NCBI GenBank assembly: GCA_016194585.1
Contig: JACQBG010000033.1
Span: 1 to 37,992, forward strand
Origin: Gemmatimonadota bacterium
GTDB lineage: Bacteria > Gemmatimonadota > Gemmatimonadetes > Gemmatimonadales > Gemmatimonadaceae
DNA: 37,992 nucleotides
Reading direction: 5' to 3'
In this document: positions 8,642 to 13,243 of the stretch, piece by piece
How the letters are laid out: every line of letters starts with the position of its first letter
Numbering within the stretch: the stretch's first letter is position 1
Position numbers and translations under genes: made by a program
The notes under the pieces: generated by a model
What the model was told of the DNA's origin: nothing
The model's database searches: none
The model's input: only the letters and a program-made list of their open reading frames with translations

Positions 8642-10438
8642 CTAGAAAGCATCATCCCTCATCTCGTACGGCGTCGCCTCGATCGACCGCAGGATCTCGT
8701 GCATCGGCCCCGTCTGCGGCAACTCCCACGCGAACCAGTACCGCGCCGCCCGCAGCTTGCCGTCGTAGAACCGACGGTCGTTCTCCGACGTCGAATTCGC
8801 GAGCGCCCGCGTCGCCACCAGCGCCTGCCGCAGCCAGAGCCACGCCACCACCGTGCGGCTCGCGCAGTCGAGATAGAGGTTGGCGTTCGCCAGCCCGCGC
8901 GCCGGGTCGGCCGCCATCGCCTTCACGAGCGTCATCGTCGTCGTGCTCAGCTCCTCCACCGACGCCCGCAGCGCCTGCGTGTGCGCGGGGAGCGCCGACT
9001 CCGCCTCCGCGGCCGTCGCGAGCATCCGTTCCACCAGCGCCCGGTACGCGGCGCCCTTCTCCATCGTCACCTTGCGACCGAGCAGGTCGAGCGACTGGAT
9101 GCCGTTCGTCCCTTCGTGGATCTGGTTGAGCCGGTTCGCCCGGTAGAGCTGCTCGACGTCGTACTCGCGCGCGTAGCCGTAGCCGCCGAGGATCTGCATC
9201 GCGTTGCTGATCGATTCCTGTCCCGCGATCGAGGGCCACGTCTTGGCGATCGGCGTGAGCACCTCGAGCAGCAGCCCGGCGCGCCGCCGCTCCTCGTCGC
9301 CCGGCGCCGTGTCCTGGTCGTCGACGAGGCGCGCGCACTCGAGCACGAGGCAGAGCGCGCCCTCGACGATCGCCTTCTGCTGCAGCAGCATGCGGCGGAT
9401 GTCGGCGTGCTCGATGATCGCGACCGGCGGGCGCAGCGGATCCTTCTCCCCCGGGAGCCGCCCCTGCTTGCGCGTGCGCGCATACTCGAGCGAGTAGCGG
9501 TACGCCGTGTACGCCATCGCCGTGGCCGACCGGCCCACGCTGATGCGCGCGTCGTTCATCATGTGGAACATGTAGGCGAGCCCCTTGTTGGCTTCGCCCA
9601 CGAGGTACCCCACGCACGGACCGTGCTCGCCGAAGTTGAGCAGCGCCGAGGTCGTGCCCCGCCATCCCATCTTGTGGATGATGCCGCCCAGCGCGACGTG
9701 GTTGCTCTCCCCCACCGCGCCGTCGTCGTAGACGTGCCGCTTGGGGACGATGAACAGCGAGATCCCCTTCACCCCCTCCGGCGCGCCCTCGATGCGGGCG
9801 AGCAGCAGGTGGATGATGTTGCTCGTGAGCTCGTGGTCGCCCCCCGAGATCCAGATCTTCGTGCCGGTGATGTGGTACGTGCCGTCGCCCGCCGGCACCG
9901 CCTTCGTGCGGACGTCGGAGAGCGACGACCCCGCATCGGGCTCGGTGAGCGCCATCGTGCCGAGGAAGCGCCCCTCGAACATCGGCGGCAGGAACTTCGC
10001 CCGCTGCGCGTCGTCGCCGAACTGCGCGATGAGGTCGGCCGCCCCCGACGTGAGCATCGCGTACGAGGTGGTCGCGACGTTCGCCGAATCGAACCACGCG
10101 AGCGCCGCCCCGCCGATCGCGTGCGGGAGCTGCATGCCGCCGTGCGCCGCGTCGTGCGTGCCGGCGATGAACCCCGCGTCGGCGATCGCCTGCACCGCCG
10201 CCTTGATCTCGGGGATCAGCACCACCTTGCCGTTCTCGACGCGCGGCTCCTCGGCGTCGTTCTTCTTCCAGTGCGGCAGCAGGTGCTCCTCGGCGATGCC
10301 GCGCGCCGTATCGAGCACGGCGTCGAACGTCTCGCGCGAGTGGTCGGCGAAGCGCGGGCGGGCGCAGAGCGCCTCGACGTCGAGCACCTCGTAGAGGAGG
10401 AAGGAGAGGTCGCGCGGATTGATCAGGGAGTCGGCCAC
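8642..10438 (-). CDS. Acyl-CoA dehydrogenase, large (about 600-residue) type with C-terminal extension
   Basis: This 598-residue FAD-dependent enzyme inserts a 2,3-double bond into an acyl-CoA, passing electrons to ETF. The usual acyl-CoA dehydrogenase core is seen: a helical N-domain, MALTEPDAGSSLSDV (FAD/substrate site, from about 162), a beta-domain with TGTKIWISGGDHE (about 191-203), and a C-domain with NQIHEGTNGIQ at about 439-449. An additional helical C-terminal domain (about 470-598) places it in the long subfamily that includes DmdC-like 3-methylmercaptopropionyl-CoA dehydrogenases. The true substrate is not predictable. The start is GTG at 10436-10438, with AGGAT upstream. No ETF or other beta-oxidation gene is next to it. 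It is divergent from the GGDEF gene. Confidence 0.93.
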   Translation of the reverse strand: MADSLINPRDLSFLLYEVLDVEALCARPRFADHSRETFDAVLDTARGIAEEHLLPHWKKNDAEEPRVENGKVVLIPEIKAAVQAIADAGFIAGTHDAAHGGMQLPHAIGGAALAWFDSANVATTSYAMLTSGAADLIAQFGDDAQRAKFLPPMFEGRFLGTMALTEPDAGSSLSDVRTKAVPAGDGTYHITGTKIWISGGDHELTSNIIHLLLARIEGAPEGVKGISLFIVPKRHVYDDGAVGESNHVALGGIIHKMGWRGTTSALLNFGEHGPCVGYLVGEANKGLAYMFHMMNDARISVGRSATAMAYTAYRYSLEYARTRKQGRLPGEKDPLRPPVAIIEHADIRRMLLQQKAIVEGALCLVLECARLVDDQDTAPGDEERRRAGLLLEVLTPIAKTWPSIAGQESISNAMQILGGYGYAREYDVEQLYRANRLNQIHEGTNGIQSLDLLGRKVTMEKGAAYRALVERMLATAAEAESALPAHTQALRASVEELSTTTMTLVKAMAADPARGLANANLYLDCASRTVVAWLWLRQALVATRALANSTSENDRRFYDGKLRAARYWFAWELPQTGPMHEILRSIEATPYEMRDDAF

Positions 10439-10585: not shown

Positions 10586-12205
10586 ATGCGCCGAACGCTC
10601 CCGCTCTCCCTGCTCGCCTTCGCGGCGTCCGTCGCCGGCGCCCAGGCACCCGCGCACCTCACCCCGATCGCCGAGGCCATCCGGGCGCGGGAGCGCGGCG
10701 ACACGGTGACGGTCACCGGGCGGGCGACGGCAGGCACCGGGCAACTGCAGTCGACGGTGTTCGACATCTCGGTGCAGGACGCCACGGCCGGCATCCGCAT
10801 CTTCTCGCGCAAGTTCGGCGTCGAGGTGCACGAGGGGGACAGCGTCGTCGCGACCGGCGTGGTGCAGGTCTATCGCGGCACGCACGAGCTGATGGCGACG
10901 GCGTTGGCCGTCGTCCCCACCGAGGCGCGGCACATCGAGCCGGCCGACGTGCCGATCGACCAGGCGATGCTGCCGAAGTACGACGGCATGCTCGTGCGCG
11001 CCCGCGGGCGCGTGGCGCGCTATGGCACGAGCGAGGGCGGGCAGTTCCTCACGCTGCGCGACATGCGTCCCGAGGCGAAGGGGACGCTCACCATCTGGGT
11101 GCCGTCGAACCATGGCGTCCCGGTGGACCTCTCGCGCGTCCGCTTCGAGGACAGCGTGACCGTCACGGGCATCATCGGTCGCTATCAGGACAACCCGAAC
11201 GATCCCGTGGTGTGGCAGGTGATCCCGCGCACGCACGACGACGTGATGGTCCCCACCGTGCCGCGCGACCTGCCGCCCTGGGTCACGGCGGCGGCGCTCG
11301 CCATCGCCCTCCTGCTCGCCGCCACGCTGCTCGCCGGACGGTGGACGGCCGGCCGCCAGCTGCGGGCGCTGCGCGAGACCGAGGTGCGCTACCGCCAGTT
11401 GCTGGCCCTCTCGCCCGACGCGGTGTTCGTCCACGCCGATGGCGAGATCCGCTTCGCCAACCCCGCCGCCGCGAAGCTCCTCGGACTCGATGGCGAAGCC
11501 CAGTTCATCGGACGCGACCTGCACGACTTCGTGCCCCCCGAGTTCCGCGGCGTGCTCGAGACGCCGGCCGTGCCGGCGCCGGGGCAGCTCGCGCAACGCC
11601 ACCGCGGCCAGCTCAAGAGCGCCACGGGACGGAGCGTCGACGTCGAGGTCACGGCCGCCCCCTGCGTGTACCTCGACCGACCGGCCGTCGTCGTGCTCGC
11701 CCGCGACATCACGCAGCAACTGCGCTACGAGCGCGACCTCGAGGGGCTCGCGCTCGTCGACGAGCTGACGTGACTCGCGAACCGGCGCGGCTTCTCCCTG
11801 TTCGCCGAGCAGGAACTGGCGCGCGCGCGGCGCGAACGGCGCGCCCCCGTCGTCGTGTTCGCCGACATCGACCTGCTCAAGCAGATCAACGACGCGCACG
11901 GCCACGCCGCCGGCGACCAGGCCATCTGACTCGTGGCGAACGCGTTCAAGAGCGTGCTGCGCGAGTCGGACATCGTCGCCCGCTGGGGGGGCGACGAGTT
12001 CGTGGCCCTCATCGGCGAGGGGGGCGAGCGCGCCGCGCAACAGATCGCGGCGCGCCTCGCCGGCGCCATCGCCGCGCTGCGTCCCTCGACGCTCGCCTTC
12101 GTCGTGCGCGCGAGCGTCGGCATGTGCCCGCTCGACCCGAGCCTCTCCCTCTCCGAAGCGCTCGACAAGGCCGACGCTGCCCTGTACGAGCAGAAGAAGC
12201 GGTAG
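10586..12205 (+). pseudogene. Membrane PAS-GGDEF diguanylate cyclase interrupted by two in-frame TGA codons
   Basis: One continuous frame of 539 coding positions holds a signal peptide (1-20), a periplasmic region with two OB-fold-like segments (about 35-215), one membrane helix (232-251), a PAS domain (about 268-378) and a GGDEF domain. TGA replaces codon 396 (11771-11773), where the family motif DELTGLANRR requires Gly, and codon 448 (11927-11929), just after AAGDQAI. Both flanks keep family sequence in the same frame, including ADIDLLKQIND and the active site GGDEF at 468-472. So there is no frameshift, only two nonsense codons. Read literally, the gene makes a 395-residue PAS protein without a cyclase. 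Alternatives are a decaying gene, base-calling errors or stop readthrough. The ATG at 10586 starts the signal peptide. Confidence 0.8.
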
Positions 12206-12241
12206 CGGCATTCGCGGTCCGCGGAGCGGCGAGGATTACTA

Positions 12242-12386
12242 CTTTGCCACGGATTCCACGGATTACGAGAACCGATCATCACGGATGAAGAACTGGGGGA
12301 ACGACAGCGCGGTCGGCACGCGGTCGTTCCCCCAGTCATTCATCCGTGATGATCCGTTCGTCTGATCCGTGCGATCCGTGGCAAAG
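12242..12386. repeat. Long imperfect inverted repeat with CACGGAT motifs (63-base arms)
   Basis: Arms 12242-12304 and 12324-12386 pair at 54 of 63 positions around a 19-base loop. The outer ends (CTTTGCCACGGAT) and the inner ends (ACTGGGGGAACGA) match perfectly. Each arm carries three CACGGAT copies, in the left arm at 12248, 12257 and 12280. It lies between the convergent GGDEF gene and the DsrE-like gene, whose stop is 35 bases away. It has no coding capacity. It resembles mobile REP/BIME-like palindromes and may also terminate transcription from both sides. Confidence 0.85.
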
Positions 12387-12421
12387 CCGTTGTCGTCATC
12401 CTGCCGCGCGCCGACCGACCC

Positions 12422-13096
12422 TCAGCTCCCGAGCACATACAGGCATCCCGCCTGCTGCGCGCGGAGCGTCGCGAACACTCCCGAGGGCTGCAGGATCACC
12501 CCCGGCACGAGCATCGAGACGGCCTTCTTGTGCGCCTCCTCCTGGCTCAGCTTGTCCTTCTCCGCGATGAGCGGCACGCAGAGGAAGCCCAGGGCGACGT
12601 TGCACGCCAACGCGATGCCGCCGCTCGCGAGGTAGCGGTCGAGCATCAGGTCGTCGAGCATCGGCGGATTGCCGTCGCGCTTGGAGTTGAGCAGCGCCGG
12701 GTTCTTCGACGTCGGCGGATCGCCCGCCGGCACGCGCTTCTTCCCCACGTCGTACGTCGCCCAGAACTCCGGCGTCATCGCGAGCGCGATCGCCTCGTGG
12801 CGCAGCACGAGCACCGTCGAGAAGTCGGAGGGCTTCGCCCCTTCGGTCTCCATGAACCCGCCCTTCCACATCCCGGCGCGATACACCGGATCGCCACCTT
12901 CGATATGCGTGGCGTCGATCACGGCCTTGTGCTTCCCTTTCACTCTCCCCACCCAGCTCATGTCCCATGCGTCGGCGGCGGTCGGTGCCGGCACGGGCTC
13001 GCTCGGGGCCATCGCGGCAAGGGCGGCCGGCATCGCGCCCAGCAGCGCGGCGCTCCCGGTGAGTCGTTCGAGGAAGTCACGTCGCGTCGTCGTCAT
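12422..13096 (-). CDS. Tat-exported conserved protein, DsrE-like fold suspected
   Basis: This 224-residue protein has a clear twin-arginine signal (TTTRRDFLERL) and cleavage-type Ala-rich stretch up to about residue 35. The mature part has alternating strand/helix pattern: HKAVIDATHI, STVLVLRHEAIALAMTPEFW, GGIALACNVALGF, a helix, then GVILQPSGVFATLRAQQAGC. This arrangement, with cysteines after strands (CNVAL, QAGCLYVL), recalls DsrE/DsrF-like sulfur-relay proteins, but that is a tentative reading. A role in periplasmic redox or sulfur chemistry would be guesswork. The ATG at 13094-13096 has AGGAG six bases upstream, so it is preferred over the longer open frame. It follows the VPS10 protein gene in the same direction but is separated by a strong hairpin. 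Confidence 0.7.
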   Translation of the reverse strand: MTTTRRDFLERLTGSAALLGAMPAALAAMAPSEPVPAPTAADAWDMSWVGRVKGKHKAVIDATHIEGGDPVYRAGMWKGGFMETEGAKPSDFSTVLVLRHEAIALAMTPEFWATYDVGKKRVPAGDPPTSKNPALLNSKRDGNPPMLDDLMLDRYLASGGIALACNVALGFLCVPLIAEKDKLSQEEAHKKAVSMLVPGVILQPSGVFATLRAQQAGCLYVLGS

Positions 13097-13186
13097 GGTC
13101 GGCTCCTGGTGGGGGGACATCGCCCTTGAGGCGGTTACTACGACCAGACGATAAGACATCCGGCCCTCACCGTCCAGCGAAACGGA

Positions 13187-13220
13187 CGCGGGGGGCGACC
13201 GTCGCCGGCCGCCCCCCGCG
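13187..13220 (-). terminator. GC-rich hairpin terminator after the VPS10-type gene
   Basis: CGCGGGGGGCG (13187-13197) and CGCCCCCCGCG (13210-13220) form a perfect 11-bp stem with a 12-base loop. It lies 23 bases after the minus-strand stop at 13244. In the RNA it is followed by CCGUUUCG, so a weak U-run is present. It should separate the large exoprotein transcript from the downstream DsrE-like gene. Confidence 0.65.
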
Positions 13221-13243
13221 CCCAACCCTGCGACCGTGCGCGC

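Follow-up and report, generated by a model that had tools for sequence, protein, structure and literature searches.

A diguanylate cyclase gene with two in-frame TGA codons in a Gemmatimonadota genome is probably a young pseudogene

Diguanylate cyclase genes that are interrupted by stop codons have been described before. In Shigella flexneri the degenerate genes dgcE, dgcQ and dgcN carry a stop before the GGDEF domain (PMC11327459). Cyclase genes with such stops still raise cyclic di-GMP in this organism and several proteins are made from them, which is consistent with internal starts (PMC11327459). Belinky et al. 2021 studied in-frame stops in bacterial genes under purifying selection on the basis of stops that orthologs share, and low dN/dS around such stops has been read as evidence of readthrough (PMC7918605). 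The gene analysed here resembles the Shigella genes in that nonsense codons interrupt a GGDEF gene whose relatives are intact, in a lineage that keeps other cyclases. However, the Shigella stops precede the GGDEF domain, whereas both stops lie within the GGDEF fold here. With the cases of Belinky et al. it shares an in-frame stop in a sequence with dN/dS well below 1, but there are two stops in our case and no ortholog has either. The closest known relatives are OB-PAS-GGDEF orthologs from Gemmatimonadota (L100-L110), which have the same domain order and, within the genus, the same neighbours. They differ in that most of their frames are intact and two of them, L109 and the copy in genome G006, each carry another single lesion. 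We consider it probable that the gene is a recently inactivated copy, a young pseudogene, of a vertically inherited and membrane-anchored OB-PAS-GGDEF diguanylate cyclase.

The window, i.e. the whole stretch of DNA that was analysed (37,992 nucleotides), is the entire contig C47 of genome G000 (3.34 Mb, 50 contigs, 98% complete). Translation gives a single frame of 540 codons with a terminal TAG at 12203, in which no insertion or deletion is found and TGA occupies codons 396 and 448 (Table 1). The two TGAs are 156 bp apart and both lie within the catalytic domain. When TGA is read as Trp, Pfam recovers the OB-fold, PAS and GGDEF domains in this order, and the GGDEF domain (PF00990) is whole with 118.5 bits at a cut-off of 23.8. 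The pieces behind the first and the second stop are also recognised alone and are in register. Under the standard code the two TGAs divide the frame, and FADID and RWGGDEF do not stand in one continuous polypeptide. The N-terminal part likely contains one membrane helix (about residues 229-251, assigned by eye from the sequence). An earlier sequence-only reading had described the gene correctly when it placed the first TGA at the Gly of DELTGLANRR and the second behind GDQAI and called the rest, including GGDEF, one intact frame.

Table 1. Coordinates of the interrupted cyclase gene, its neighbours and further loci of the genome. Positions without a contig name refer to the window.
Feature	Position	Strand	Basis
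Acyl-CoA dehydrogenase, upstream neighbour kept beside the cyclase in the four carriers of the genus	8642..10438	-	
Interrupted OB-PAS-GGDEF diguanylate cyclase frame	10586..12205	+	translation, Pfam, orthologs
Segment preceding the first stop: N-terminal region, OB-fold (residues 42-107), PAS (268-375)	10586..11770	+	Pfam PF01336, PF00989
First in-frame TGA, Gly of DELTGLANRR	11771..11773	+	translation, orthologs
GGDEF first half with FADID metal-site motif	11774..11926	+	46.5 bits, profile 9-58
Second in-frame TGA, Arg (once Lys) position	11927..11929	+	translation, orthologs
GGDEF second half with RESD-type I-site and RWGGDEF	11930..12202	+	55.3 bits, profile 62-156
Downstream neighbour without Pfam family, kept beside the cyclase in the four carriers of the genus	12422..13225	-	
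Eight other genes with a single nonsense codon (G000)	C1:40882, C12:42167, C24:46653, C27:15620, C32:35321, C35:1961, C37:5571, C46:9919		
Further selenium-system loci (G000)	C45:58175-59245, C17:3864-5696		

All named relatives of the cyclase come from Gemmatimonadota MAGs and are 58-84% identical to it. The sequence-only reading had called for a comparison with orthologs, and sense codons are present at both sites in all ten that were aligned: the first site is Gly (GGC, GGG or GGA) in every one, and the second is Arg in nine and Lys in one. Compared with intact orthologs the frame is therefore disrupted, as in a pseudogene. Four of the 18 genus genomes carry the gene, and it is absent from the other 14 at E<=1e-60. 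In all four carriers it lies between the same two neighbours, the acyl-CoA dehydrogenase and the downstream gene, and is thus inherited in place. The orientation of the downstream gene relative to the cyclase is reversed in G017 (C701:4200-4976) compared with G000, G008 and G006. A palindromic element lies behind the cyclase at 12215-12413 of the window and has two arms of 95 nt each that are 77% complementary, with CCACGGAT motifs; about ten contigs of the genome carry diverged copies, and the element has no Rfam match. Two orthologs are broken as well: the G006 copy has lost one base near codon 100, and L109 has a TAG at a conserved Gln codon. The lesions of the three genes do not coincide in position, so they are independent events, be they mutations or artefacts.

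Pseudogenes are recognised by relaxed constraint as well as by a disrupted frame. Compared with the nearest ortholog (L100, genome G017), the part up to the first stop has a dN/dS of 0.19 by the Nei-Gojobori method and the GGDEF part behind it one of 0.106. The window protein differs at two of the 218 columns that do not vary among the other orthologs, which is within the range of those orthologs (0-9; only L108, the most divergent, has more). The derived replacements on the window lineage and on its sister number 22 and 20 in the N-terminal part, and 2 and 5 in the GGDEF domain. There is hence no trace of relaxed constraint in dN/dS, in the invariant columns or in the derived replacements, so that the stops must be very young or artefactual, and the assignment to the young pseudogenes is our interpretation of the locus rather than proven membership of that class. 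The sequence-only reading had remarked that frameshifts usually accompany the decay of a gene; this is valid for older pseudogenes, but it does not apply to one so young.

The second-ranked explanation is an error of assembly or base calling, of which the latter had also been offered from the sequence alone. In this case the organism would have an intact gene, and at least one of the TGAs would be miscalled or stem from a minority strain within a metagenome-type consensus. We regard this as rather unlikely. It would fit the full constraint across the supposed lesions and their absence from all orthologs, and the broken orthologs likewise come from MAGs. However, random substitution in this gene yields about 32 missense changes per nonsense change, yet only the two odd residues are seen at the invariant columns. 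Both cyclase stops share the hexamer TGACTC, which the sequence-only reading had overlooked. Two random codons of the gene have an identical following codon with a chance of about 4%, and the shared hexamer is a mild coincidence. Motif-linked miscalling of GGACTC or CGACTC was considered and discarded, as there is no excess of TGACTC either in the window (3 seen, 16 expected) or in 2.63 Mb of the genome, where it occurs 194 times against 2276 for CGACTC and 1390 for GGACTC. The second TGA stands in TGACTCG, and a near-complement, CGAGTCG, follows about 30 bp downstream (window 11927-11968). Relatives have CGC ATC at this spot, so a templated quasi-palindrome change as origin of the second TGA is conceivable, albeit speculative.

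Genes with a single nonsense codon, be it TAG, TAA or TGA, occur here and there in the genome, which would also fit errors. Our scans for broken genes, tRNAs and hexamers covered 2.63 of the 3.34 Mb (79%). In-frame stops with a strong same-frame coding signal on both sides gave 79 candidates, which were sorted by eye, and most of these are normal gene termini followed by another gene in that frame. Besides the cyclase, eight genes are interrupted by a single internal nonsense codon while their frame is otherwise intact (TAG in four, TAA in three, TGA in one), a count by eye that refers to nonsense codons, not frameshifts, in the 2.63 Mb. They include an aminotransferase, a carbonic anhydrase, an S9 peptidase, a LanC-like protein and a sugar epimerase, and a Pfam domain spans the stop in six of the eight. 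Judged from their families these genes look dispensable, which speaks against error. Among the nine broken genes the cyclase alone has two stops. The chance of a second nonsense change before 2-10 missense changes is 6-27% per broken gene, so that with about nine such genes roughly one double-nonsense case is expected, although this estimate is rough and was made after the fact. These other nonsense-broken genes, together with the independently broken orthologs, favour recent inactivation, one of the readings offered from the sequence alone.

Functional readthrough was another of these readings. Here both UGAs would be decoded, for instance as Trp, some full-length cyclase would be made and the gene would be kept for it. 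The low dN/dS behind the stops is the signature that others have taken for readthrough (PMC7918605), and both stops have the TGACTC context. However, neither stop is present in any ortholog, and a recent age of the stops accounts for the low dN/dS as well as readthrough does. Moreover, losses would multiply over two serial events, the sites are Gly and Arg positions and not Trp, and an ordinary gene of the sample also ends in TGACTC (C38:105414). Readthrough-prone forms of tRNA-Trp, with features tied to UGA decoding, have been described (PMC13092985). The tRNA-Trp of G000 has a full 5-bp anticodon stem, and A9 and G24 are read from its sequence, so it lacks these features. No tRNA with a UCA anticodon other than tRNA-Sec was seen in the scanned 79% of the genome, and RF2 (prfB) is present with 486.8 bits. 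Readthrough is thus disfavoured, and we consider it improbable. A special form of it, in which termination efficiency at two serial TGACTC-context UGAs sets a very low cyclase dose, is more improbable still; if true, it would be a new means of setting the dose of a signalling enzyme. A genome-wide recoding of UGA, which the sequence-only reading had thought unlikely, is rejected, since TGA terminates 804 of 1184 genes with a strong coding signal at their end (TAG 279, TAA 101), and the presence of RF2 and, in the scanned 79% of the genome, the tRNA result speak against it likewise.

Insertion of selenocysteine at both UGAs was also considered, because G000 has tRNA-Sec (C24:17211-17307), SelA and SelB. 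A CMD/AhpD-like gene of this genome (C13:17016; L052:17016) reads CPF-UGA where the CMD family has CxxC, and it is likely a selenoprotein with UGA at the Cys position. At the cyclase sites, however, the orthologs have Gly and Arg or Lys, never Cys, and the hairpins behind the two TGAs do not stand out, as they were matched or bettered by 17 and 33 of 200 shuffles. We therefore reject selenocysteine at these positions, and its probability is close to nil.

Taken together, inactivation ranks first among the readings, an assembly error comes second and readthrough far behind. The locus is best viewed as a commonplace gene that broke recently, or else as an assembly error, and does not look like a new way of reading the code. 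We infer that the organism really carries the stops and that the gene has lost its function. Two nonsense substitutions would have placed TGA inside the catalytic domain. Translation would then end at codon 396 and yield at most an OB-PAS protein, probably membrane-anchored, that lacks GGDEF, and without this domain no cyclic di-GMP would come from this enzyme. Internal restart as in Shigella is ruled out by the position of both stops: they lie inside the GGDEF fold, so a restart cannot rebuild the whole domain, and a restart behind the second stop would give the domain minus its first third (profile 1-61), metal site included. Most likely, then, the gene no longer functions, except if the stops are errors or readthrough occurs at both of them. 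A second copy was looked for in the genome and none was found. The cyclase protein has matches in five other regions of the genome, which in at least four cases cover the GGDEF domain, so that synthesis of cyclic di-GMP as such need not be lost. As it stands, the finding is of little import and would show a gene of cyclic di-GMP signalling at the beginning of its loss. It also cautions against taking low dN/dS behind a stop, on its own, as proof of readthrough.
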